This document shows positions 7,061-43,613 of a stretch of DNA of 64,000 bases, in pieces (position 1 is the first letter of the stretch; each line of letters begins with the position of its first letter). The notes beneath the pieces were generated by a model. That model made no database searches, was not told the DNA's origin, and saw only the letters and a program-made list of their open reading frames with translations. The stretch comes from Rhodothermales bacterium (GTDB lineage Bacteria > Bacteroidota > Rhodothermia > Rhodothermales > JANQRZ01), in contig JBDUXZ010000005.1 of NCBI GenBank assembly GCA_039944855.1, positions 124,001 through 188,000 of the forward strand, written 5' to 3'. The position numbers and the translations under genes were made by a program.

Positions 7061-7816
7061 TTAGCCTTGCTGGCGGGCGGCGTTCACAATCGCCGCAAAG
7101 CTCGTCGCGTCGAGGCTCGCCCCGCCGATCAGACCGCCGTCGATGTCGGGCTGCGCGAAGAGCTCGGCCGCGTTGTCCGGCTTGACGCTGCCGCCGTAGA
7201 GGAGCTCGACCGCGCGGCCGGTCTCGCCGAGCGCGTCGGCGAGGCGCTCGCGGACGAAGCGGTGCATCGCCTGCGCCTGCTCGGGCGAGGCCGTCTTCCC
7301 CGTCCCGATCGCCCACACCGGCTCGTACGCCACGACGAGGTCCGACGCCTCGTCGATCCGCACGCCGTCGAGCGCAGCGCGAAGCTGTTCGCCGACGACC
7401 CGCTCCTCGTCCCCCGCCTCGCGCTGCTCCAGCGTTTCGCCGACGCAGAGGATCGGGACGAGGCCGTGCTGGAGCGCGGCGTTCAGCTTGCGGTTCACGC
7501 CTTTGTCGGTCTCGCCGAAGAGCTGCCGCCGCTCGGAGTGGCCGAGGATGACGTAGTCGCAGCCGACCGACGCCAGCATCGGCGCGGAGATTTCGCCCGT
7601 GAACGCGCCGCTCTCGGCCTCGTGCATGTTCTGTGCCCCGAGCCGGACGGGCGTATCGCGGGTGATCTCGGCAGCTGCTTCGAGCGAGACGAAGGGCGGG
7701 CAAATCGCCACGGTGACGGCGTCTCCGCCTCCGTCGACGGCGCGCGCCACGTCCGAGGCGAGCCGGACGGCTTCGGCGAGGTCGGTGTTCATCTTCCAAT
7801 TTCCGGCGATCAGCAT
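7061..7816 (-). CDS. tpiA: triosephosphate isomerase
   Basis: The product is 251 residues, the normal family length. The ATG at 7816 was chosen because it places MLIAGNWKMN at the N terminus, although the frame extends a little upstream. Catalytic residues are visible: K8 (NWKMN), H93 (ILGHSERR) and E165 (AYEPVWAIGTG, with loop 6 following). It interconverts dihydroxyacetone phosphate and glyceraldehyde-3-phosphate in glycolysis and gluconeogenesis, in the cytoplasm. It follows gatB at 50 bases and precedes the GWxTD gene at 14 bases on the minus strand. Confidence 0.98.
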   Translation of the reverse strand: MLIAGNWKMNTDLAEAVRLASDVARAVDGGGDAVTVAICPPFVSLEAAAEITRDTPVRLGAQNMHEAESGAFTGEISAPMLASVGCDYVILGHSERRQLFGETDKGVNRKLNAALQHGLVPILCVGETLEQREAGDEERVVGEQLRAALDGVRIDEASDLVVAYEPVWAIGTGKTASPEQAQAMHRFVRERLADALGETGRAVELLYGGSVKPDNAAELFAQPDIDGGLIGGASLDATSFAAIVNAARQQG

Positions 7817-7866
7817 CGTTCGAGGGGTTGAAATGTGAGGATGGAATGCGTAGCGTCGAGCGCCGA

Positions 7867-31152: not shown

Positions 31153-31599
31153 TCACACGGCGCGCGATTGCTTCAGGAGGTCGCGGATCTCGGTGAGCAG
31201 CTGCTGATCGGCGGACAGCTCGGGGGCGGAGGGCTCCTCGGCGACCTCGGCCTCGGCTTCCTTCTTCAGCCCGTTGATCCACTTCACGAAGATGAACACG
31301 GCGAAGGCGACGATGAGGAACGAGATGACGGTGTTGAGGAATGCGCCCCACGCCATCACCACGGCACCCGCTTCCTGCGCAGCGGCGAGCGAGGCATACG
31401 GCCCGACGGGGTCGCCCTGCTGCAGCACCGAATAGATGTCGCTGAAATCGACATCGCCGATGAGGAGGCCGAGCGGGGGCATGAGGATGCCGTTGACGAA
31501 CGCCGTGACGATCGTCCCGAAGGCCGCGCCAATGATGATGCCGACGGCCATGTCGACCACGTTGCCTTTGACGGCGAACTCCTTGAACTCATTCCACAT
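31153..31599 (-). CDS. mscL: large-conductance mechanosensitive channel MscL
   Basis: The product is 148 residues. It opens with [25 protein letters not shown], the amphipathic S1 helix and TM1, which contains the Gly/Ala-rich pore constriction. [11 protein letters not shown] follows. TM2 is [21 protein letters not shown]. The acidic cytoplasmic bundle ends in [12 protein letters not shown] pentameric channel opens under membrane tension to release osmolytes during hypo-osmotic shock. A promoter-like sequence is visible upstream. Confidence 0.97.
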
Positions 31600-31908: not shown

Positions 31909-33405
31909 ATGTCGCTTATGAATCGTCGTCGCTTCCTCACCCTCAGCCCCACGGCCGCGCCGAGTTCGCCCGCGCCTCCGCAACCCATCGCCTCCCCCCC
32001 GGCGGTGCGCGGCGGCCTCGAACCGTACACCCCCTCCGAGAGCGCGCCGTGGGACGAGCGCCGGGCGGCCCACCTCGTCCGCCGCCTCGCCTTCGGCGCC
32101 TCCGTGCCGGACCTCACCGAGGCCCTCTTCCGCACCCCGTCGCAGGCCGTCGACTACTTCGTCGACCAGGCCCTCGCGCGCCCGCTGCCCGATACGCCGA
32201 CGTGGTACAACTCCACCCCGAACGGCGGCCAGCAGAACATCGACTGGCTCTATGCCTGGCAGGAAGGCTGGTATGCCGAGATGCGCGCCGGCGGCCTTCG
32301 CGAGAAGATGACGCTCTTCTGGCACGACCACTTCGCCACCGAGGTAAACGTCTACGGCCTCGCGCCCTACGCCTACCAGTACCTCACGCACCTCCGCACG
32401 CACGCGCTCGGCAACTTCCGCACCCTCCTGAGCGGCGTCGGCACGCTCCCGGCGATGCTGATCTACCTCGACGGCAACTCGAACACGGCCGGCGACCCGA
32501 ACGAGAACTACGCCCGCGAGCTGTACGAGCTGTTCACGATGGGGATCGGCAACTACGAGCAGGAGGACGTCTCGGAGACAGCCCGCGCGCTCACCGGCTG
32601 GCGCGTCAACGCCGGCACGCTCTCGTCCTCCTTCGACCCCGCCCGCCACGATGGCGGCCAGAAGACGATTTTCGGCCAGACCGGAGCCTGGGGCTACGCC
32701 GACGTCCTCGACCTCGTCTTCGCGCAGCGCGGGGCGATCACGGCGCAACGCCTCTGCCGCAAGCTCTACGAGTGGTTCGTCTACGGCGTCCCGAACGACT
32801 CCGTCGTGCAGGGCATGGCGGCGACCCTCGTGGCGAACGACTGGAACGTCGCGCCCGTACTGCGCCAGCTCTTCAAGAGCGCGCACTTCTTCGACGACGC
32901 GTTCATCGGCGCCCAGCTCAAGGACCCGTCCGACTTCCTCATCGGGCTCGTGCGCGAGCTCGGACTCACGCCCTCGGCCGAGATGTGGTCGACGTACCGC
33001 GAGCTCGGCTTCACGCTCGGGCAGGAGCTGCTGAACCCGCCGAACGTGGCGGGATGGGACGGCTACCGGACGTGGATCACGACGGGCTCCGTGCCCGAGC
33101 GGCAGATCGTCACCGCCTCCGCCCTCTTCGGCGGCGGGCCGTTCGACGCTTACGACCCGCTCCCGCTCATCGAGCAGATCACCGACCCGACGAACGTCTA
33201 CTCCGTCGCCGGCGACCTCGCCGACTTCCTCCTCACGGCCACCTTCGACGAAGAGGAGCGGGCCTTCCACGTCGAAATCCTCCTCGCCGGCGCGCCCTAC
33301 TACGAGTGGCCCCTCCTCGTGCAGACGAGCCCGGAGACGGCGAAGGAACGGCTTCGCAACCTGCTGAACCACCTCGTCACGCTCCCCGAGTTCCAGCTTA
33401 CGTGA
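31909..33405 (+). CDS. DUF1800 domain-containing protein (copy 1)
   Basis: The product is 498 residues; the ATG at 31909 or the one at 31918 could be used. The N terminus has a twin-arginine-like motif (NRRRFLTLS) but only a weak hydrophobic stretch after it. DUF1800 hallmarks are PWDERRAAHLVRRLAFG, LFWHDHFATE, GDPNENYARELYELFTMG, the KTIFGQTGAWGY block and NPPNVAGWDGYRTWI. DUF1800 function is unknown, but its genes are nearly always followed by a DUF1501 gene, as here after 50 bases. The pair is duplicated at 37481-40753. Confidence 0.92.
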   Translation: MSLMNRRRFLTLSPTAAPSSPAPPQPIASPPAVRGGLEPYTPSESAPWDERRAAHLVRRLAFGASVPDLTEALFRTPSQAVDYFVDQALARPLPDTPTWYNSTPNGGQQNIDWLYAWQEGWYAEMRAGGLREKMTLFWHDHFATEVNVYGLAPYAYQYLTHLRTHALGNFRTLLSGVGTLPAMLIYLDGNSNTAGDPNENYARELYELFTMGIGNYEQEDVSETARALTGWRVNAGTLSSSFDPARHDGGQKTIFGQTGAWGYADVLDLVFAQRGAITAQRLCRKLYEWFVYGVPNDSVVQGMAATLVANDWNVAPVLRQLFKSAHFFDDAFIGAQLKDPSDFLIGLVRELGLTPSAEMWSTYRELGFTLGQELLNPPNVAGWDGYRTWITTGSVPERQIVTASALFGGGPFDAYDPLPLIEQITDPTNVYSVAGDLADFLLTATFDEEERAFHVEILLAGAPYYEWPLLVQTSPETAKERLRNLLNHLVTLPEFQLT

Positions 33406-33455
33406 TGCGATAGCGACGCCCTCACTCCGTCTGCGCCCCCTAGCCCCCGAGCCCT

Positions 33456-35111
33456 ATGTGTGATCACCACGACCACCACGCGCCTGCCGCCGCCGAACCC
33501 GAGGTCACCGCCGCTGAAGGCCGCGCGATCGCCCTCGAGCACGGCGCCGACCACGACCGCGACCACGCCCTCTGGAGCCGCCGCGACTTCATCACGCGCT
33601 CCAGTGTCGCCGCCGGCGCGGCGTCGTTCCTCCTCGGCACCCGGCAGGTCAGCGCGCTCGGCCACGCGCCCCTCCTCCAGCGCCTCGCCCAGCTCGACGG
33701 CAACCGCTCGCTCGTGATCGTGCAGATGGCCGGCGGCAACGACGGGCTCAACACGATCATCCCGATCACGAACGACCGCTACTACCAGGTCCGCCCGACG
33801 ATCGCGATCCCCGGCAGCCAGGCCGTCGCGCTCGACGCCGACACCGGCATGCACCCGGCGATGAACGCGCTCGAACCGATGTGGGGCGACGGGCAGATGG
33901 CCGTGCTCCAGACCGTCGGCTACCCGTCGCACAACCTCTCGCACTTCCGCTCGACCGACATCTGGGCCTCGGGCAGCCCGGCCGACGACTACGTCCGCAG
34001 CGGGTGGACCGGCCGCTACTTCGACAACCAGTTCCCCGACTACGGCCAGGCGCCGCCCGACTTCCCCGTCGCGATCCGCATCGGCGGCGCGACGTCGACG
34101 CTGCTCCGCGGCGGCGATCTCACGATGGGGATGAGCCTTTCCAGCCCGCGGCAGCTGCAAGACCTCGCCGAAGACGGGACGATCTACGACGAGGCCGACG
34201 TGCCGCCGACGGCCCACGGCGACGAGGTCGCGTTCGTCCGCTCGATCTTCAACGCCTCGTTCCGCTACCGCGACTCCGTCGTCGACGCCGCCGCTGCGGC
34301 CGAGAACAGCGTCGAGTACCCCGCTGACGGCTTTGCCGAGACGCTCGCCGTCATCGCCCGGATGATCAAAGGCGGGCTCGGCGCCCGGCTCTACGTCCTC
34401 CAGATTGGCGGGTTCGACACGCACTCGAACCAGGCGAGCCGGCACCAGCAGATCCTCGGCCGCCTCGCGAACGGGATGAGCGCGTTCTTCGCCGACCTCG
34501 CCGCGGGCGGCGCCCAAGACGACGTGCTCGCGATGACGTTCTCCGAGTTCGGCCGCCGCGTCGAGGAAAACGGCTCGAACGGGACCGACCACGGCACGGC
34601 CGCGCCGATGATGCTCTTCGGCGGCGGGATCAACGGCGGGCTTTACGGCGACGCGCCCGACCTCCTCGACCTCGACAACGCGGGCAACCTCCGCCACTCG
34701 ATCGACTTCCGGCAGGCCTACGCCACCGTCCTCACGCAATGGTTTGGCCTGCCCACGGCCGACGTGGAGAACATTCTCTATGACAGCTTCGAGCCGCTCG
34801 GCTTCATCGCCGACCCCGTCGCCGCCGACGGCGGCCCCTCCGCCCCGCTCGATTTCGCCGTCGAGGGCAACTACCCCAACCCCTTCACGAGCCGAACCAC
34901 GATCCGCTTCCGCCTCGGCGACGCCGGCCCGGTGCAGGTCCGCGTGTTCGACCTGCAAGGCCGCGAGGTGCGCACGCTCGTAGACGGCCCGCTCGCCGCC
35001 GGCACGCACAGCCTGTCGTTCGAGGCGCTCGACCTCCCGAGCGGCACGTACCTCTACCAGATCGAGACGCGGCGCGGCGCCCAGAGCCGCCCGATGACGC
35101 TCGTCCGATAA
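33456..35111 (+). CDS. DUF1501 protein with twin-arginine-like signal and T9SS sorting domain (copy 1)
   Basis: The product is 551 residues. It opens MCDHHDHHAPAAAE, with Cys 2 and a His cluster, then HGADHDRDHALWSRRDFI, a twin-arginine-like motif before a short hydrophobic stretch. The body is DUF1501 (related to the sulfatase/alkaline phosphatase fold), with VQMAGGNDGLNTIIP, SHFRSTDIWASG, IGGFDTHSNQ and FSEFGRRVEENGSNGTDHG. The last 80 residues form a type A T9SS sorting domain starting NYPNPFTSRTTIRF and ending RPMTLVR. It is thus predicted to be exported and then handed to T9SS. Its role is unknown. Confidence 0.92.
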   Translation: MCDHHDHHAPAAAEPEVTAAEGRAIALEHGADHDRDHALWSRRDFITRSSVAAGAASFLLGTRQVSALGHAPLLQRLAQLDGNRSLVIVQMAGGNDGLNTIIPITNDRYYQVRPTIAIPGSQAVALDADTGMHPAMNALEPMWGDGQMAVLQTVGYPSHNLSHFRSTDIWASGSPADDYVRSGWTGRYFDNQFPDYGQAPPDFPVAIRIGGATSTLLRGGDLTMGMSLSSPRQLQDLAEDGTIYDEADVPPTAHGDEVAFVRSIFNASFRYRDSVVDAAAAAENSVEYPADGFAETLAVIARMIKGGLGARLYVLQIGGFDTHSNQASRHQQILGRLANGMSAFFADLAAGGAQDDVLAMTFSEFGRRVEENGSNGTDHGTAAPMMLFGGGINGGLYGDAPDLLDLDNAGNLRHSIDFRQAYATVLTQWFGLPTADVENILYDSFEPLGFIADPVAADGGPSAPLDFAVEGNYPNPFTSRTTIRFRLGDAGPVQVRVFDLQGREVRTLVDGPLAAGTHSLSFEALDLPSGTYLYQIETRRGAQSRPMTLVR

Positions 35112-35149
35112 CGCCCTCCCCCCGCTCCACCCCACCACGCCGACGACCC

Positions 35150-36145
35150 ATGAAACCCACGCTGTTCTTCCTCTTCTTCCTCGCCCTCGCCGTCACCGGC
35201 TGCGACGCCACGGGCGACGAGCCCGGCTCCGGCCCGAACGGGAGCGCCCCCGGCTACCCCGTCGTCGTCGACGAGCAGTGGGGCTTCGCCGACGCGCGCG
35301 GCTCCCTCCGCATCGCCCCCCGCTTCACGTTCGCCGATGACTATGCCGACGGCCGCGCCGCCGTGCAGATGGGCCCGTTCTGGGGCTTCGTCGACGAAGC
35401 CGGCAACGAGGTGATCGCGCCGCAGTTCGACTTCGCCGGACGCTTCGGCGACGGCCTCGCCCCAATCCGCACGATCGAGGGCTGGGGCTACATCGACGCC
35501 GCCGGGACGGTCGTCGTGGCGCCCGCCTACGACAACGCCCGCTCGCTCTCTGACAACCGGGGCGCGGTGAAAGACGGCCTTCGCTGGGGCTACGTCGACG
35601 GCAGCGGCGCGGTCGCGATCGAGCCGCAGTTCGCCTTCGCCAGCGACTTCTCCGAGGGGCTCGCCGCCGTCGAGACCGTCGAGGGCTGGGGCTACATCGA
35701 GGCCAGCGGCGCCCTCGCGATCCCGGCGAGCTACGGCGACGCGAAGGCGTTCAACGACGGCCGCGCCCCCGTCCGCATCGGCGACCGTTGGGGCTACATC
35801 GACCGGAGCGGCAGCCTCGTCGTGAACCCGCGCTACGGCAACGCCGGGCTGTTCTCCGAGGGCACCGCGCCCGTGCAGATCGACGGCCGCTGGGGCTTCA
35901 TCGACGCCTCCGGCGAGGTCGTCATCCGCCCGCAGTTCGACGAGGCGAAGGCGTGCTCCGAGAACCGCGCACCCGTCCGCCTCGGCTCGCGCTGGAGCTA
36001 CATCGACTGCGACGACGGCCTCGTCATCACGACGCCGCGCTTCACCGCCGCCTACCCCTTCAACGGCATCGCCAAAGTCGAGCTCGACAGCCGCGTCGGT
36101 TACATCGACCGCGCCGGCGAGTACGTCTGGGTCCCCACCGACTGA
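35150..36145 (+). CDS. WG-repeat lipoprotein (copy 1)
   Basis: The product is 331 residues. The signal ends in ALAVTGCDA (Cys 18), so it is a lipoprotein. The rest is a chain of about nine WG repeats of roughly 33 residues, each with W-G-[FY]-[IVF]-D followed by a G and [IV]-x-P-x-[FY], for example WGFVDEAGNEVIAPQF and WGYIDRSGSLVVNPRY. Two later units are degenerate (WSYIDCDDG, VGYIDRAGEYVW). WG repeats (PF14903) are beta-rich and of unknown function. It lies 38 bases after the DUF1501 gene and is very likely in the same operon. Confidence 0.92.
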   Translation: MKPTLFFLFFLALAVTGCDATGDEPGSGPNGSAPGYPVVVDEQWGFADARGSLRIAPRFTFADDYADGRAAVQMGPFWGFVDEAGNEVIAPQFDFAGRFGDGLAPIRTIEGWGYIDAAGTVVVAPAYDNARSLSDNRGAVKDGLRWGYVDGSGAVAIEPQFAFASDFSEGLAAVETVEGWGYIEASGALAIPASYGDAKAFNDGRAPVRIGDRWGYIDRSGSLVVNPRYGNAGLFSEGTAPVQIDGRWGFIDASGEVVIRPQFDEAKACSENRAPVRLGSRWSYIDCDDGLVITTPRFTAAYPFNGIAKVELDSRVGYIDRAGEYVWVPTD

Positions 36146-36172
36146 TCCCACCCGAGCGCTACCTCCGTCCTC

Positions 36173-36200
36173 GTACAGACGCAGCATGCTGCGTCTCTAC
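36173..36200. repeat. palindromic repeat, family C, copy 1
   Basis: A perfect 20-bp palindrome (AGACGCAGCATGCTGCGTCT, 36177-36196) is extended to 28 bp by GTA/TAC ends with one mismatch. It lies in the gap before the second WG gene. Confidence 0.85.
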
Positions 36201-36227
36201 TACCCCGCTTTCATCTGCATCGAACCC

Positions 36228-37247
36228 ATGCGCTACGCCTTCCTCCTCCTCTTCCTCGTCCCGTTCTGGGCCGCGTGCGACACGGCCTCCGACGACGGCA
36301 CGGGCCCCGGCTCCTCCGGTGACGAGCGCCCGACGCTCTTCCCCGTCGAGCGCAACGACCTCTGGGGCTACATCGACAACGCCGGCGGGATCGTGATCCA
36401 GCCCGAGTACTACAGCGCCCGCCCGTTCTACGGCGACTTCGGCCCCGTGCGCGGCCGGCGCAACAACCAGAACTTCTGGGGCTACATCACCCGCGACGGT
36501 GAGATCGCGTTCGACCTCCCCGTCGACGAAGCCTTCCCCTTCTCCGGCGGCGTCGCGCGCGTTCGTGCCGGTGGGCGGTATGGCTACGTCAACACCGAGG
36601 GCCGCTACGTCATCAACCCCGTCTTCGGGCAGGCGGGCGACTTCAAAGGGGGCGTGGCGCGCGTGCAGATGAACGGGCACTACGGCTTCATCGACCGGAG
36701 CGGTGCGTTCGTGATCGAGCCCGACTACGACGAGGTCGAGAATTTCGCCGACGGCCGCGCGCTCTTCCGCGACGACGACGACGACAAGTACGGCTACCTC
36801 GACCGCGACGGGGCGGTGGCGATCGAGCCGCAGTTCGATCAGGCCCGCTCGTTCGCCGACGGCCGCGCCGCCGTCAAAGTCGGCGACCGCTGGGGCTACA
36901 TCGACACCGACGGCCGCTTCGCCATCGACCCCCGCTTCATCAGCGCCGGCGACTTCGGCGACGGCCGCGCGCCGGTCCGCACCGAGAACCTCTGGGAGTA
37001 CGTGAACGAGCGCGGCGAGCGTGTGATCGCCCCGGCTTTCGACGACGCCCGCGCGTTCAGCGAGGGCCGCGCCGCCGTCCGCACCGAAGGCCGCTGGGGC
37101 TTCATCGACGAGGCGGGCAACGTCCTCCGCGGGCCCGACTTCGACGAGGTGGACGCGTTCGAAGGCGGCGTCGCCCGCGTGTGGGTCGGCGAGCTGATGG
37201 GCTACATCGGCACGGGCGGGCAGTACGTCTGGATCCCCGCGCAGTAA
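36228..37247 (+). CDS. WG-repeat lipoprotein (copy 2)
   Basis: The product is 339 residues from the ATG at 36228; an upstream ATG at 36186 lies inside a palindrome and would precede the signal peptide. The lipobox is LVPFWAACDT (Cys 15). About nine WG units follow (WGYIDNAGGIVIQPEY, YGFIDRSGAFVIEPDY, WGYIDTDGRFAIDPRF and so on). A DDDDDKYGY insert is in the middle. Like copy 1 it ends with a GYIGTGGQYVW unit, so the two are paralogues that share their terminal repeat. It sits between the two DUF1800-DUF1501 pairs. Confidence 0.92.
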   Translation: MRYAFLLLFLVPFWAACDTASDDGTGPGSSGDERPTLFPVERNDLWGYIDNAGGIVIQPEYYSARPFYGDFGPVRGRRNNQNFWGYITRDGEIAFDLPVDEAFPFSGGVARVRAGGRYGYVNTEGRYVINPVFGQAGDFKGGVARVQMNGHYGFIDRSGAFVIEPDYDEVENFADGRALFRDDDDDKYGYLDRDGAVAIEPQFDQARSFADGRAAVKVGDRWGYIDTDGRFAIDPRFISAGDFGDGRAPVRTENLWEYVNERGERVIAPAFDDARAFSEGRAAVRTEGRWGFIDEAGNVLRGPDFDEVDAFEGGVARVWVGELMGYIGTGGQYVWIPAQ

Positions 37248-37415
37248 CCCCCGCGCCTCCCGTTTGCCGCCCCGGCCCGGTCCGAGCGTCGCCCCCGCGA
37301 CGCCTGCCGAGCCGGGGCGCTGTCGTATTCCGGTGCCGGATCGCGCCTGCGCGTGTGACTTCGATCACGGCACTCGCGGCTCCCCCTTCGACCCAACGCC
37401 AGCGCGCACTGCACT

Positions 37416-37443
37416 TTGCGCCGGCCGATCGACTCGCTATCCT
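37416..37443 (+). promoter_or_regulatory. sigma70-like promoter of the second DUF1800 gene
   Basis: TTGCGC at 37416-37421 and TATCCT at 37438-37443 are 16 bases apart. The distance to the ATG at 37481 is 37 bases. A GTG at 37451 would be only 7 bases past the -10, which argues for the ATG. Confidence 0.5.
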
Positions 37444-37480
37444 GTAGCTCGTGTCCCGCCCCTCCCGACCCCGGCGCCTC

Positions 37481-39115
37481 ATGGACCGTCGCTCTTTCCT
37501 CCGCTCTGCCACGCCGTTGCTGCCTGAAGCCCTCGCCACGGCAGCCCTGCCTGCAGACCCGCCGTTCGAGTACCTGCCCGGCCGCTTCAGCGACCCGCGC
37601 CTGCCGATCCGCTGGACGTCGAGCGAAGCCGAGCGCCCCGCACCGGCGCCGCCCTCGGGCGAGCCGCTCCGCACGCAGACCGGGCTCGAACCCTTCGTCC
37701 CCTCCGCCGACGCGCCGTGGGACCGCCGCCGGGCGTTGCACCTCCTCCGCCGCACCGGCTTCGGCGCCCGCCCCGAGGACGCCGACGTCGTGCTCGCCCT
37801 CACTCCCGCCGCCGCCGTCGATGCCCTCGTGGACGCCACGCTCGAGGCCTCGCTGCCGCCGGTGCCGCCGTGGATCGACGAGCCGCCGCCGCCGCCCGAC
37901 GCGCCGCCCGGCGAGCTCGACTCCTACATCCAGCAGACGATCCAGTGGATCTACGACACGGAGCACGAGGTCTACCGCGAGGCGCTCGTGCTCCGCGCCG
38001 CCGGAACCGCCTTCCGCGAGCGGCTCGCCCTGATGTGGCACAACCACTTCGTGACAGGCCTCGAGGACTACTTCCTCGCTCCGTGGCTCTACCGCTACTG
38101 GACCCTCCTCCGCACGCACGCCCTCGGCGACTTCCGACAGTTCGTCTACGAGATCGGGTTAACGCCGGCGATGCTGATCTACCTCAACGGCATCCAGAAC
38201 CGCGTCGGCGAGCCGAACGAGAACTACGCCCGCGAACTCCTGGAGCTGTTCACGATGGGGATCACCGGGCCGGACGGCACGCCGAACTACACGCAGGACG
38301 ACATCGAGGAGTTGGCGCGCGCGCTCACCGGCTGGACCGTCGACCTCTATGGCACGCTCGAGTCCGTCTTCATTCCGCCGTGGCACGATGCGGGGACGAA
38401 GACGATCTTCGGCCAGACGGGGACGTGGGGCTACGACGACGTGGTGCCGCTCCTCTTCGCACAGCGCGCGCCCCAGATCGCGTATCACATCGCGGATGTG
38501 CTCTACCGCGAGTTCGTCTACGAAGTCCCCGACCCCGACGTCGTCGCCGACCTCGCTGCTGAATTGGAGGCGAACGACTTCCAGCTTGAACCGACCGTCC
38601 GCACCCTCCTCCGGAGCGCGCACTTCTTCGATGCCGCTACGATCGGTGCCCGCGTTAAGAGCCCGGCGGGGCTCACGCTCGGGCTCTATCACGAGATCGG
38701 GCTCGCCGAGGACATCGAACTCTTCGAGATCACCCGCTTCGTGATGGCGCTCACGAACCAGCGGTTGTTCCAGCCGCCGAACGTCGCCGGGTGGCCGGGC
38801 TATCGCGCCTGGCTCGACGCGAACACGCTCCCGCTCCGGTGGCTCTACGGCGACGCCATGCTGCCGCAGCAACAGACGTTGCAGGCCCTCGCGCTCGAAC
38901 TCCCGAACCCGTTCGACCCGTACGCCTTGACGGCGGACTTCGCGGCGCACTTCTTCGCCGTCCCCGTCGGCCCCGACACCCTCGCATCCTACGTCGAGAT
39001 CCTCCTCAACGGGATCCCGGACTACGAGTGGAACCCGAACGACCCCGGGGCCGAGGCCCGGTTGCTCGGCCTCGCCGCCCACCTGCTCCGCCTCCCCGAG
39101 TACCAGCTGACGTGA
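37481..39115 (+). CDS. DUF1800 domain-containing protein (copy 2)
   Basis: The product is 544 residues from the ATG at 37481, chosen because a promoter -10 element ends at 37443 and DRRSFLRS forms a twin-arginine-like motif just after it. DUF1800 marks are PWDRRRALHLLRRTGFGARPED, LMWHNHFVTG, GEPNENYARELLELFTMG and PPNVAGWPGYRAWLDANTLP. It is longer than copy 1, mainly by a Pro-rich linker (PAPAPPS region and PPPPPDAPPG). The partner DUF1501 gene follows after 24 bases. Confidence 0.92.
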   Translation: MDRRSFLRSATPLLPEALATAALPADPPFEYLPGRFSDPRLPIRWTSSEAERPAPAPPSGEPLRTQTGLEPFVPSADAPWDRRRALHLLRRTGFGARPEDADVVLALTPAAAVDALVDATLEASLPPVPPWIDEPPPPPDAPPGELDSYIQQTIQWIYDTEHEVYREALVLRAAGTAFRERLALMWHNHFVTGLEDYFLAPWLYRYWTLLRTHALGDFRQFVYEIGLTPAMLIYLNGIQNRVGEPNENYARELLELFTMGITGPDGTPNYTQDDIEELARALTGWTVDLYGTLESVFIPPWHDAGTKTIFGQTGTWGYDDVVPLLFAQRAPQIAYHIADVLYREFVYEVPDPDVVADLAAELEANDFQLEPTVRTLLRSAHFFDAATIGARVKSPAGLTLGLYHEIGLAEDIELFEITRFVMALTNQRLFQPPNVAGWPGYRAWLDANTLPLRWLYGDAMLPQQQTLQALALELPNPFDPYALTADFAAHFFAVPVGPDTLASYVEILLNGIPDYEWNPNDPGAEARLLGLAAHLLRLPEYQLT

Positions 39116-39139
39116 TCGCGTCACCGATCCCCTGAGCCC

Positions 39140-40753
39140 ATGTGTGACCACGCCCACTCCGGCCCTCGCGCGATCTCGCTCGACCACGGCCGGGACCACG
39201 ACCGCGATCACGCCGCCTGGACCCGCCGCGACTTCCTCCTGCGGTCCAGCGCCGCCGTGGCCGGGGGCTCCGTCCTCATCGGCAGTACGCCCGTCCGCGC
39301 GCTCGGCCACGCCCCCCTCCTCGACCACCTCGCCCGGCTCGAAACGGACCGCGTGCTCGTCCTCCTTCAACTCGGCGGCGGCAACGACGGGCTCAACACC
39401 ATCGTTCCGGTCACGAACGACCTCTACTACCAGCAGCGCCCGACGATCGCGATTCCCGGCTCTCAGACCGTGCCGCTGGGCGACGACTACGGGCTCCACC
39501 CCGCCCTCGGCCCGCTCGAAGCGACGTGGGGCGAGGGGCAGATGGCCGTCGTCCACTCCGTCGGCTACCCCGACCCGAACCTCTCCCACTTCCGCTCGAC
39601 CGACATCTGGCTCACGGCTTCCGACTCCGAAGAGACGCTGCTGACGGGCTGGGGCGGGCGCTACCTCGACGGCAAATTCCCCGACTTCGAAGCCGATCCG
39701 CCGACGTTTCCACCCGCCGTGCAGATCGGCACGTCGGCGCCCCTCCTGTTCCAGGGATCGGGCGTGAACCTGGGAATGTCGCTCGTCGACATCAACCTCT
39801 TCCTCCAGATTGCGCAGGGCGGCACGCCCTACGACCCCGCCGACGTCCCGCCCCTCCCCTATGGCGACGAACTCGCCTTCGTCCGCACCGTCGCGAACGA
39901 CTCGTTTCGCTACCTCGACGCGATCCAGGCCGCCACCGACGCCGCCGACAATGAAGTTGAATACCCCGGCGGCCCGCTCGCGCAGTCCCTGGCCGCCTGT
40001 GCCCGCCTCATCAAAGGCCGTCTCGGCGCGAGGATCTACCACGTCACGCTCGGCGGGTTCGACACGCACGCCGACCAGCCCGGCCAGCACGCGAACCTCC
40101 TCGGCACGCTCGCCACTTCCGTCCGCGCTTTTTACGACGACCTCGCCGCCTCCGACGACGACGCCCGCGTGCTCACGACGACGTTCTCCGAGTTCGGCCG
40201 TCGTATCGCCCAGAACGGCTCGAACGGGACGGACCACGGCACCGCCGCCCCGCTCTTCACCTTTGGCCCCCCCGTCGCCGGCGGGCTCTACGGCGACGGC
40301 CCCGACCTCGCCGCCACCGACGCCGACGGCAACCTCGTCCACACGACGGACTTCCGCTCGGTCTACGCCACGCTCCTCACCGACTGGTTCGGGCTCGCGC
40401 CCGGCACGGTCGAGGGGATTCTCGGCGGCCCGTTCGGGACGGTCCCGTTCGTAGCGAGCCCCGTTGCCTCGGGCGATGGCGCGGCGCCTCTCGCGTTTGG
40501 CCTCGACGCCGCGTACCCCAATCCCTTCCGGGATGCCGCGACCGTGACCTTCCACCTCAGCCGCCCCGGCGACGTGCGGCTCCGCGTCTACGACACCGCC
40601 GGCCGCCTCGTCGCCACGCTCGCGGAGGGATCGTTCCCCGCCGGATCGCATGCCGTGCGCTTCGACGCCGGGCGGCTCCCGAGTGGGAGTTACCACGGCG
40701 TGCTCGACAGCGCCGAGGGCCGCCGCTCGCGGACGATGACGCTCATCCGTTAG
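39140..40753 (+). CDS. DUF1501 protein with twin-arginine-like signal and T9SS sorting domain (copy 2)
   Basis: The product is 537 residues and a paralogue of the 33456 protein. It starts MCDHAHSGPRAISLDHGRD, again Cys 2 and His-rich, then HDRDHAAWTRRDFLLRSS (twin-arginine-like). DUF1501 motifs are LQLGGGNDGLNTIVP, SHFRSTDIWLTA, LGGFDTHADQ and FSEFGRRIAQNGSNGTDHG. The C-terminal T9SS domain begins AAYPNPFRDAATVTF and ends SRTMTLIR. The N-terminal Cys/His block and the tail are kept between copies although the middle has drifted, so both are probably used. Confidence 0.92.
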   Translation: MCDHAHSGPRAISLDHGRDHDRDHAAWTRRDFLLRSSAAVAGGSVLIGSTPVRALGHAPLLDHLARLETDRVLVLLQLGGGNDGLNTIVPVTNDLYYQQRPTIAIPGSQTVPLGDDYGLHPALGPLEATWGEGQMAVVHSVGYPDPNLSHFRSTDIWLTASDSEETLLTGWGGRYLDGKFPDFEADPPTFPPAVQIGTSAPLLFQGSGVNLGMSLVDINLFLQIAQGGTPYDPADVPPLPYGDELAFVRTVANDSFRYLDAIQAATDAADNEVEYPGGPLAQSLAACARLIKGRLGARIYHVTLGGFDTHADQPGQHANLLGTLATSVRAFYDDLAASDDDARVLTTTFSEFGRRIAQNGSNGTDHGTAAPLFTFGPPVAGGLYGDGPDLAATDADGNLVHTTDFRSVYATLLTDWFGLAPGTVEGILGGPFGTVPFVASPVASGDGAAPLAFGLDAAYPNPFRDAATVTFHLSRPGDVRLRVYDTAGRLVATLAEGSFPAGSHAVRFDAGRLPSGSYHGVLDSAEGRRSRTMTLIR

Positions 40754-40761
40754 TCCTTCGT

Positions 40762-41124
40762 ATGACCGTGCGCTTTCTCATCTTGATTGGGACCTTACTG
40801 TTCACCCCGGGATGCGCCGGAGTTGAAGTCATTCCCGGTGTCACGTCAGAGGAAGACGTTGTAATGAATGTTGCATATGAACACCTACTAGAGGCCGGGG
40901 CCATTAATGGGACGTACCAAGTCCGGGGTTCAGTACTGCCTGTCAGGCAGGATAGTTTTCCGATCTATCCCCCCCCGCCGCCGCCTCAGAAACCACCATG
41001 GACCGAGCAGTGGCGGGTCTCGTTCGACGTGTTCGACAGCTTCGGCAATCCCGTCGGCGAACTCTCCGTCCTAGTCTGGCGCTTCGACGAAGCCGGCGAG
41101 ACTCGGTACGAGGTGGGAACGTAG
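40762..41124 (+). CDS. small lipoprotein, atypical codon use
   Basis: The product is 120 residues, starting 8 bases after the DUF1501 stop. The signal ends in LLFTPGCAG (Cys 18). A Pro run (PPPPPPQKPPW) precedes a short strand-rich C terminus. Many codons end in A or T (for example gtt, gaa, att, gca), unlike the neighbours, where third positions are almost always G or C. A perfect 7-bp inverted repeat, CTGCCTG/CAGGCAG, lies inside the reading frame at 40936-40950. No family is recognised. A strong hairpin follows. Confidence 0.6.
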   Translation: MTVRFLILIGTLLFTPGCAGVEVIPGVTSEEDVVMNVAYEHLLEAGAINGTYQVRGSVLPVRQDSFPIYPPPPPPQKPPWTEQWRVSFDVFDSFGNPVGELSVLVWRFDEAGETRYEVGT

Positions 41125-41192: not shown

Positions 41193-43256
41193 TTACGACT
41201 TCTTCGCGGGCTTCTTCACTTCGGGCGCGCCGTCGCCGGCGTTCGCGGGCTCCGTCGCCGGAGCGCCGTCGCCGAGGCTGCCACCCTCCTGGATGTAGGC
41301 GTCGCCGGGGAACTGCTTGACGAACTGCGTCTGGATCGGCTTGCCCGTGCCCTTGTCCGTCGGCGAGGACTCGTGGATGTAGAACTCGTCGTTCGCCTGC
41401 GTATCGGTGAGGGCGTACTGCGCCTGCGCGGCCTCGACCATCGACTGGTCGGCGTTGCGTGTGAGGCCGCGGTTGTTCTCGCGGATCTGGAGATCGGCGA
41501 GGCGGAGGAAGTGGAGCGCCGCCGCCTTGTCGCGCTCGAAGGCCGCGCCACGCTCGCCCTTGCGGAGCTGCATGTCGAGCTTCGAGAGGACGCACGACCA
41601 CGCGTACATCAGGATCGCGTTGTCGGCGATCCGCGCCTGCATCACCTGCCGCGTCACGATCGTCTCTTCGAGCCGCTTCGAGGCCAGCTTAAACTCGCGC
41701 GAGTGGGTCTGGACATGCTTGGCGAGGAGGTCGGCCTGGCCCTGGAGCGCGGGGTGGAGCCGCTGCACGTCCGCCTTCCGCTGCTTCTTGCCGAGGAAGA
41801 TCTCGGCGGCGAGCGGCGTCCCCTTCTTTACGATCTCGGGGTTGACGGCGCTGAGCGCGATCCGCTTGAGGTTGTCGAGCGTGCCCGTCTCCTCGTCCCA
41901 CTCGACGGCGTTGAGCACGCCGAGCATGTACTCGGCGAGCTGCTTCCCGCCGTAGGCGAAGACGAACGACTGCATCACCTCGTTCGAGCCCTCGACGATC
42001 CGGTGGATGCGGTTGTCGCGCCAGATCCGGTCGTACTCGTTTTCGGTGACGTAGCCCTCGCCACCCATGATCTGCATGCCGTCGTCGATGACTTTCCAGC
42101 CGTAGTCGGAGCAGAACACCTTGCAGGCAGCGGTCTCGACCATGATGTCCTTGTCGTGCCGGTCGAGGAAGCCGCACGTCATGTAGAGCATAGCGTCCAT
42201 CGCGTAGCAGTAGGCCGCCATCCGGGCAACGTGCTGCTGGACGAGCTCGAAATCGGCGAGGGGGCGGTTGAACTGGTGCCGGGTGCGGACCCACTTCGTG
42301 GCCTGGTCGCGCGCCTGCTTCGCCGCGCCCGTGACGCCGGCCGAGAGCGTGCAGCGACCGTAGTTGAGGCACGTCAGCGCCACCTTCAGCCCCTGCCCCT
42401 CTTTGTGGAGGAGCTGCTTCGCGGGCACCTTGACATCGGTGAAGCGGACGCGGGCCTGCCACGTCCCGCGGATGCCCGTCTTCGAGCGGTTCTTCTGGAA
42501 GATGTCGACGCCTTCCATGTCCGGCGTGACGATGAGCGCGGTGACGCCCTCCTTCGTCTTCCCCGTCTTCGGGTCGGTGATCTTGTGCTTTGCCATCACC
42601 GTGAAGAGCCCGGCGAGCGCGCCAGACGTGGACCACTTCTTCTCGCCGTTGAGGATGTAGTGCGTGCCGTCGTCGGAGAGCCGGCACGTCGTCTCCTGCC
42701 CGGCGGCGTCGGAGCCGACCTGAGGCTCGGAGAGGCAGAACGCCGAGAGATACTCGCGCGCGACTTTGGGGAGGTACTCGTTCTTCTGCTCCTCCGTCCC
42801 GAACAGCATCAGCGCCTTGCAGCCGATCGACTGGTGCGCCGAGACCACGACGGCCGTCGAGCCGCACGTCCGCCCGATCCGTTCGAGGACGCGGTTGTAG
42901 CTCGCCACGCCGAGACCGAGCCCGCCGTACTGCTCGGGGATCGTCATGCCGAGCACGCCGATCTCAAAGAGCCGGTCGATGGCCCATTCGGGGATGAATT
43001 CTTCCTGGTCGATCTGGATCGCGGGGTGCTCGTTCTTGAGGTAGTCGTCGAGCCGCTGGAGGAGCGCGTCGGCCTTGGCCTTCTCGGCGGCGGAAACCTC
43101 GGGGTACGGGAAGACGAGATCCTCGCGGATGCGGCCCCACGTCATGTTCTTGATGAAGCCCATCTCTTCGGGCTCCGGCCCCATCATCGTCTCGGCCTCG
43201 CGGATCATCTGCTGATCTTTGGCGGCGACGCCTTTCATGTTGGAGAGGATCGACAT
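41193..43256 (-). CDS. acyl-CoA dehydrogenase
   Basis: The product is 687 residues from the ATG at 43256. After a 95-residue N-terminal stretch comes the acyl-CoA dehydrogenase core: GMTIPEQYGGLGL, FCLSEPQVGSDAAGQ and YILNGEKKWSTSG (FAD and substrate contacts), then VKVPAKQLLHKEGQGLK, GGEGYVTENEYDRIWRDNRI and HRIVEGSNEVM, which contains the catalytic-Glu region. A C-terminal extension of about 200 residues is Ala/Lys/Glu-rich. That makes it longer than plain 380-residue members and like the long-chain ACAD/ACAD9-type group. It oxidises acyl-CoA to enoyl-CoA in beta-oxidation. Confidence 0.9.
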   Translation of the reverse strand: MSILSNMKGVAAKDQQMIREAETMMGPEPEEMGFIKNMTWGRIREDLVFPYPEVSAAEKAKADALLQRLDDYLKNEHPAIQIDQEEFIPEWAIDRLFEIGVLGMTIPEQYGGLGLGVASYNRVLERIGRTCGSTAVVVSAHQSIGCKALMLFGTEEQKNEYLPKVAREYLSAFCLSEPQVGSDAAGQETTCRLSDDGTHYILNGEKKWSTSGALAGLFTVMAKHKITDPKTGKTKEGVTALIVTPDMEGVDIFQKNRSKTGIRGTWQARVRFTDVKVPAKQLLHKEGQGLKVALTCLNYGRCTLSAGVTGAAKQARDQATKWVRTRHQFNRPLADFELVQQHVARMAAYCYAMDAMLYMTCGFLDRHDKDIMVETAACKVFCSDYGWKVIDDGMQIMGGEGYVTENEYDRIWRDNRIHRIVEGSNEVMQSFVFAYGGKQLAEYMLGVLNAVEWDEETGTLDNLKRIALSAVNPEIVKKGTPLAAEIFLGKKQRKADVQRLHPALQGQADLLAKHVQTHSREFKLASKRLEETIVTRQVMQARIADNAILMYAWSCVLSKLDMQLRKGERGAAFERDKAAALHFLRLADLQIRENNRGLTRNADQSMVEAAQAQYALTDTQANDEFYIHESSPTDKGTGKPIQTQFVKQFPGDAYIQEGGSLGDGAPATEPANAGDGAPEVKKPAKKS

Positions 43257-43613
43257 AGCAAGTTGGGTAAGTGGCAGAGTCAGAGGAGCGGTCGGGCGTG
43301 CGAATCGTCGACGTGCAACGCCGGGTAGCGAAAGCGCTTCCGTTCGAACGGGAACGCGGGCGTCAGGTTCAATCCGAACGTAGAAATATACGGGAGCAGC
43401 GCCCCTTTTCACCCGATGTTACCCGAAGGCCGCGGGTGCCGCCGACCCACACCATAGCGACGCAACGTGCTGCGTCTCCGCCAACGATTCGGCGACGTGC
43501 CATGCCCGGAGACGCAACGTGTTGCGTCGCTACGGCGGCCTCGGTCGGCCTGCCATTCCCGATCGGGGCGACCGTAATTTCGGCGACTTCGTCCCACCGT
43601 CCCATCCTCACCC
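43257..43613. other. divergent gap with a family C repeat pair
   Basis: These 357 bases separate the acyl-CoA dehydrogenase and pyrF genes. Apart from the palindrome pair at 43455-43535 and an AT-rich patch near 43381-43393 (minus-strand TATATTTC, possibly the -10 of the dehydrogenase gene), I see nothing coding. Confidence 0.45.
43455..43535. repeat. inverted pair of family C palindromes
   Basis: Two near-palindromes with GACGCAAC cores are at 43459-43476 and 43511-43528. The second has perfect 8-bp arms. Their flanks (TAGC on one side, TCTCCG on the other) show that the two units lie in opposite orientation, so the whole can fold as a larger inverted repeat. The core is that of the palindrome at 36177. 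Confidence 0.8.

Follow-up and report, generated by a model that had tools for sequence, protein, structure and literature searches.

An operon-like unit of DUF1800, DUF1501 and two WG-repeat lipoprotein genes conserved in the class Rhodothermia

DUF1800 and DUF1501 are widespread, export-linked protein families of Bacteroidota without known function, and the pairing of their genes, the occurrence of such pairs in tandem, and WG repeats are all already known. In Proteobacteria, DUF1800 and DUF1501 genes were reported to co-localise with genes for a sugar epimerase and a chitin synthase, and two tandem DUF1800-DUF1501 pairs were described in Agrobacterium vitis (PMC5122149). We analysed here a stretch of 64,000 nucleotides (nt), called the window below, from a Rhodothermales bacterium with a genome of 4.6 Mb (GenBank assembly GCA_039944855.1, contig JBDUXZ010000005.1, positions 124,001 to 188,000 of the forward strand; G000:C5:124001-188000 in our numbering). 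A first-pass annotation, made from the letters of the window, had noticed DUF1800, DUF1501, WG, WG, DUF1800 and DUF1501 genes in this order on one strand, and had read them as a duplicated pair module wrapped around two WG-repeat lipoproteins. That order was confirmed base for base, and the second pair is indeed present; however, the entity conserved class-wide is an operon-like unit of four genes, namely one DUF1800-DUF1501 pair followed by two WG genes (WGa and WGb), and most unit-bearing relatives lack a second pair behind it.

In the window, the unit starts with DUF1800 gene 1 (31909..33405, plus strand; PF08811, 325 bits, full length) and continues on the same strand with DUF1501 gene 1 (33456..35111; PF07394, 107 bits), the WGa lipoprotein gene (35150..36145; PF14903, 245 bits, 7 repeats) and the WGb lipoprotein gene (36186..37247, with a likely start at 36228; PF14903, 249 bits, 8 repeats). 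The second pair, also on the plus strand, consists of DUF1800 gene 2 (37451..39115; PF08811, 324 bits) and DUF1501 gene 2 (39140..40753; PF07394, 80 bits), and is separated from WGb by 203 bases, a gap far wider than the others of the block. Both DUF1800 proteins exceed the gathering cut-off of PF08811 (26.1 bits), with matches spanning positions 1-419 of 419, and in the Pfam profile search the two DUF1501 copies (PF07394 cut-off, 27 bits) and the WG proteins all lie above the Pfam cut-offs as well. The spacing within the pairs is 50 bases in the first and 24 bases in the second, exactly the range annotated at first. No convincing promoters or terminators were found around the block, and its recent horizontal import was rejected, as composition gave no sign of it (G+C of 0.70-0.71 in all parts versus 0.69 in the window).

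DUF1800 loci from 60 relatives of the same order were annotated with profiles built from the window genes. Wherever a WG gene stood beside a pair in these genomes, the arrangement was always DUF1800-DUF1501-WG-WG on one strand with exactly two WG genes, and the loci of that pair lineage that seem to deviate (L059, L063 and L086) break off at a contig end. A WGb profile search of 244 genomes of the class gave 39, the window genome included, with scores above 370 bits; among 296 genomes sampled from the phylum, no protein outside the class exceeded 370 bits, the best non-class score being 303 bits. When 38 of the 39 genomes were fetched, 35 of them, from Rhodothermales and Balneolales (order labels that rest on the named loci L091-L098), displayed the complete four-gene order, and the rest were cut by contig ends. 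Both WG genes lie directly 3' of DUF1501 on the same strand, the median spacings along the unit are 14, 25 and 12 nt, and DUF1501 and WGa overlap by 4 bases in four loci (L197, L198, L199 and L212); some strongly negative or large tabulated spacings are artefacts of taking the longest reading frame or of a crude start rule. In no complete locus was WGa found without WGb, or both WG genes without the pair. The DUF1800-DUF1501-WG linkage is far beyond chance, with the same order recurring in 35 complete loci, and the four genes may be co-transcribed. WG genes stand beside pairs throughout the class, so the linkage first noticed here is not peculiar to this genome. One genome (G161) has DUF1501 broken into two reading frames and a short first WG frame of 245 amino acids (L206:5381-7070, 7099-7836); this copy of the unit is possibly decaying or misassembled.

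Named genomes were scanned with the WG protein alone, which gave no match (the sampled peptides are not conserved), and the scan was repeated with DUF1501. Among the 80 loci obtained, a WG gene was found beside the pair only in two Balneolaceae loci, again in the four-gene order, and, within the reach of contigs and 8 kb flanks, in none of the 78 loci outside Balneolaceae; the named Balneolaceae locus L092 is apparently the same as our L193. Pairs without WG genes occurred in Flavobacteriaceae, Saprospiraceae, Chitinophagaceae, Cytophagaceae, Ignavibacteria and Marinimicrobia.

The unit of Rhodothermales usually keeps to one neighbourhood, with serS on one side and an acyl-CoA dehydrogenase gene on the other, the latter lying directly behind WGb in G001, G002 and G022, and behind the second pair in G027 and in the window. 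This constancy of place, and the commonness of WG-less pairs elsewhere, would suit a view in which long-standing adjacency in a stable chromosomal region is all that joins the four genes, the WG pair and the DUF pair being separate units that share no function. We regard this as improbable, given that the flanks differ in Balneolales, yet the order, the orientation, the near-zero spacing and the 4-base overlaps are kept, that the unit is intact in G032 and G039 without any serS, mscL or dehydrogenase marker in the fetched flanks, and that the complete loci offer neither WGa parted from WGb nor these WG genes parted from the pair. A unit that remains constant in two settings, the Rhodothermales and the Balneolales flanks, argues for a functional unit. 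Two loci (L037 in G030 and L057 in G021) have a DUF1800-DUF1501 pair together with serS and the acyl-CoA dehydrogenase gene but no WG genes, and the unit seems to have been lost or replaced there while a pair stayed in place.

The two WG genes of the unit belong to separate lineages. In a tree of WG proteins, 76 unit-linked and 19 unlinked, the 38 WGa proteins, that of the window among them, all fell on one side of a branch with a support of 88, and all 38 WGb proteins, again including that of the window, did likewise with a support of 89, values that are good, yet below the level starred in our trees. The separation of the two clades took one change each, versus about 30 in shuffles. One WGa clade and one WGb clade imply that the two parted before Rhodothermales and Balneolales diverged and that their order has been kept since, and, judged from this tree, WGa and WGb are distinct, anciently diverged paralogues (36% identity between the window copies). 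Another WG gene of the same genome occurs outside the window block. Both proteins are predicted to be lipid-anchored: the lipobox cysteine is invariant in 22 of 22 aligned WG rows, a lipobox pattern was detected in 66 of 76 WG proteins, the window WGa carries the lipobox AVTGC with D as the next residue, and in WGb the invariant cysteine is Cys31. An acidic region follows the cysteine, with 3.6 acidic versus 0.3 basic residues per twelve, and in Bacteroidota acidic residues behind the lipoprotein cysteine are associated with surface export. A sequence search of solved structures with WG gave nothing informative. An anti-phage defence system was considered as well; PADLOC gave no real match, its two WG matches to models of a candidate system being weak (28 residues, E 0.003).

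The protein of DUF1501 gene 1 comprises a signal of the twin-arginine translocation (Tat) type at residues 40-67, an alkaline-phosphatase-superfamily domain at about 80-456, and a type A tail of the type IX secretion system (T9SS) at 473-543. Its structural model reached a moderate mean predicted local distance difference test (pLDDT) score of 71, with a better core, and its best fold match was 7cba (Z 16.4, root-mean-square deviation 4.0, 249 residues aligned). The fold comparison yielded 383 chains with Z of at least 8, the leading rows of which all belong to the alkaline phosphatase superfamily, such as nucleotide phosphodiesterases, sulfatases and phosphoethanolamine transferases; a sequence search of solved structures with the catalytic domain gave nothing informative. 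DUF1501 thus models as a predicted enzyme of this superfamily, whose chemistry would most likely be the hydrolysis or transfer of phosphate or sulfate esters, phosphodiesters included. In an alignment of 21 sequences, D96, S162, H163, T322, H323, D378 and H379 are invariant and D321 is nearly so, and D96, S162, H163, H323, D378 and H379 are candidate active-site residues, of which the aspartates and histidines could serve as metal ligands.

As for export, a twin-arginine motif with a hydrophobic stretch was found in 57 of the 61 DUF1501 proteins of the order, and the Tat model TIGR01409 scored 21.1 bits for gene 1 and 17.0 bits for gene 2, versus a cut-off of 16.7. At the other end, the tail of the first DUF1501 lies above both relevant cut-offs (TIGR04183, 36.1 bits versus 23; PF18962, 30.4 versus 27), and a T9SS type A tail was matched in 25 of 27 other relatives and, at E 0.01, in 21 of 21 order members. 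The genome encodes the SprA translocon (TIGR04189, 1581 bits, G000:C13) and TatC (211 bits). At the start of DUF1501 (window 33456-33600), a conserved stretch rich in histidine and aspartate, HG..H..DH..W[ST]RRDF, was observed before the twin arginines, which is unusual for a signal peptide.

DUF1800 was modelled with confidence as an all-helical protein (pLDDT 89). No solved structure scored above Z 4.6 among the chains compared, which is not proof of a new fold, and a sequence search of solved structures was again uninformative. A signal-like hydrophobic segment is absent from 63 of 66 and from 74 of 77 members, as well as from window gene 1. Such a helical, signal-less protein, encoded directly upstream of its would-be client, recalls the all-helical TorD/DmsD/NarJ proteins, and DUF1800 could be a cytosolic, non-exported chaperone of DUF1501, acting in proofreading of the Tat signal or in metal loading; the conserved HG..H..DH..W[ST]RRDF stretch is what would be expected of a chaperone-recognised signal, and the rest of the model set out below would stand. 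We hold this assignment to be on the unlikely side, for, at about 500 residues, DUF1800 would be a large Tat chaperone, and no TorD-like protein appeared among the DUF1800 fold matches, although a fold outside those listed would still be possible. In addition, a deeply separate type of DUF1800-DUF1501 pair was found in G023, G032, G039 and G053 (L084, L087, L090 and L033), and, in contrast to the main type, two of its four DUF1800 proteins (L084 and L033) open with a lipoprotein-like signal, which points to extracytoplasmic work.

Taking these features together, we tentatively propose, at a likelihood somewhat short of even, that the unit encodes a Tat-exported, T9SS-displayed metal-dependent enzyme (DUF1501) with a helical DUF1800 partner and two lipid-anchored WG partners. 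DUF1501 would fold with its metal in the cytoplasm and cross the inner membrane by Tat, which fits its signal, and would then pass through the T9SS to the cell surface by means of its C-terminal sorting tail, which fits the tail and the presence of SprA. DUF1800, having no signal of its own, would probably bind DUF1501 in the cytoplasm and ride along through Tat; the lack of a signal on DUF1800 and the conserved residues ahead of the twin arginines of DUF1501 fit a DUF1800 bound to DUF1501, be it co-exported or acting as a cytosolic chaperone. At the outer membrane, WGa and WGb may receive the enzyme, or may hold, position or recognise it or its substrate, in keeping with their linkage and lipid anchors. 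A surface assembly had been suggested by the first-pass annotation, and the Tat and T9SS signals on DUF1501 and the lipoprotein signals on the WG proteins fit that suggestion, with the location itself predicted from sequence. The stricter version, in which folded, metal-loaded DUF1501 crosses by Tat together with DUF1800, is passed still folded to the T9SS, and is received by the WG lipoproteins, appears unlikely to us.

Several observations weigh against the proposal of a Tat-exported, T9SS-displayed enzyme with WG partners. At E 0.01, only 8 of the 21 order members were matched by the Tat model, and the second DUF1501 has a tail that narrowly misses the cut-offs (TIGR04183, 21.9 versus 23; PF18962, 24.8 versus 27), although it nonetheless aligns with the tails of relatives. 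SprA was matched in all 60 relatives (in one below the cut-off), whether or not they carry the unit, and is therefore useless as a discriminator of the presence of the unit. The residue after the lipid-anchored cysteine of the WG proteins is mostly aspartate, which in Escherichia coli causes retention in the inner membrane, a rule that may not be that of the host. Finally, DUF1800-DUF1501 pairs occur without WG genes in most of Bacteroidota, so that the WG proteins are not essential to the pair.

The second pair of the window sits between WGb and the acyl-CoA dehydrogenase gene (41193..43412, minus strand; PF00441 and related domains), which, like mscL on the upstream side (31153..31599, minus strand; PF01741, 152 bits), serves as a synteny marker outside the unit. 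In the same-family genomes G001 and G002 this slot is empty, with no second pair anywhere, and the sandwich with a second pair behind the unit is a lineage-specific extra that most unit-bearing members of the class are without. Beyond the copies in the window, no further DUF1800 or DUF1501 gene was found in the genome. As annotated at first, the paralogues are diverged and keep their motifs: identity is 46% between the DUF1800 and 54% between the DUF1501 copies, and despite this divergence the same invariant residues are retained in both copies of each. The second pair would supply a diverged isoform of the same enzyme. Eight bases behind the second DUF1501, an open reading frame (40762..41124, plus strand) encodes a predicted lipoprotein of 120 amino acids with a proline-rich stretch, for which no Pfam or NCBIfam family and no relative in any fetched locus was found, and its membership in the block is uncertain.

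The second pair does not behave as a recent copy of the first. Besides the low identities, sister DUF1501 copies, as expected of a recent tandem duplication in the window genome, were rejected by the approximately unbiased (AU) test (p-AU 4e-5). DUF1800 gene 1 grouped with the unit-linked DUF1800 of the same family (starred support of 100), and DUF1800 gene 2 had as its sister the upstream pair of G059 (96, starred) and then the pair of G032 (100, starred). In G059 the relative is on the opposite side of the unit, with mscL in between; the G032 relative is detached, beside serS and mscL. These closest relatives indicate that the first and second pairs are paralogues older than the split of families f1 and f12. 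Inspection of the loci placed mscL between the extra pair and the unit in G059 (L076:12378-13100) and beside the detached pair in G032, positions which imply that pairs have moved around mscL.

The sandwich recurs in family f2 (G027 and G036, partly G043 and G050) in the same neighbourhood, and half of it in f7. The second pair of f2, however, belongs to a different paralogue clade from that of the window, and for both proteins the placing of all second pairs in one clade was rejected (p-AU 1.2e-4 and 5.9e-5). It follows that the sandwich was assembled at least twice or that one slot was overwritten by recombination; from these trees, it probably arose at least twice. The other course, which we consider doubtful, is that in every family the slot between WGb and the dehydrogenase gene was held by a second pair from the outset, and that concerted evolution, through recombination of adjacent pairs, misleads the trees in the f1/f12 lineage. 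It would account for the pair held in that slot by both the window genome and G027, for the arrangement of serS, pair and dehydrogenase without WG genes in G021 and G030, and for the grouping of the first and second pairs of the f1/f12 lineage in the DUF1501 tree (85%) and in the DUF1800 tree (a set of 16 rows, 95, starred), as conversion would give; on the other hand, the relatives in G059 and G032 adjoin serS and mscL, across the unit or away from it, and the second pairs resist being placed in one clade with either protein. In G008, a second DUF1800 gene lies behind WGb with no DUF1501 after it (L078:11652-13250), a possible remnant of a second pair.

Among the described systems, the chitin-synthase-linked pairs of Proteobacteria (PMC5122149) share with the window unit both Pfam families, their adjacency and the Tat motif on DUF1501, and differ in that the unit has WG lipoproteins and a T9SS tail on DUF1501. 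Their published co-localisation with a sugar epimerase and chitin synthase would favour a role of the module as an accessory of glycan synthesis. Such a role is highly improbable here: no chitin synthase or epimerase was found beside the window unit among the flanking genes tested (serS, CDP-alcohol transferase, LPG-synthase-like, mscL, acyl-CoA dehydrogenase, OMP-decarboxylase-like and DUF2851), no glycosyltransferase is among the window genes tested around the unit, and the distant pair type of G023, G032, G039 and G053, which is possibly of the chitin-synthase-linked kind, forms a deep branch apart from the window genes. The WG-less pairs of Bacteroidota resemble the unit in pair order, in a mostly present T9SS tail and in tandem pairs, with three in a row in L122 (Aquimarina); they differ by having no WG genes beside the pair, as in Flavobacteriaceae, Saprospiraceae, Chitinophagaceae and Ignavibacteria. 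We found no description in the literature of the WG-linked four-gene unit, or of a protein bearing a T9SS tail as well as a Tat-type signal, which is weak evidence, most subscription papers lying outside the search. For two families without known function, the unit gives a concrete and testable set of partners.

The predicted DUF1501 fold (Z 13 to 16) is that of the alkaline phosphatase superfamily, and the invariant aspartates and histidines could be metal ligands, whereas the catalytic domain has no detectable sequence relation to a solved member. DUF1501 likewise resembles T9SS type A cargo, in that the C-terminal domain of the first copy exceeds the curated cut-off and SprA is present in the genome, and differs from it in an N-terminal signal that is Tat-like rather than of the Sec type. 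That one protein bears both a Tat-type signal and a T9SS tail is, in our opinion, the most interesting point of this locus, and, as the combination extends well beyond the class, it makes testable whether the T9SS can take up cargo that was folded in the cytoplasm.

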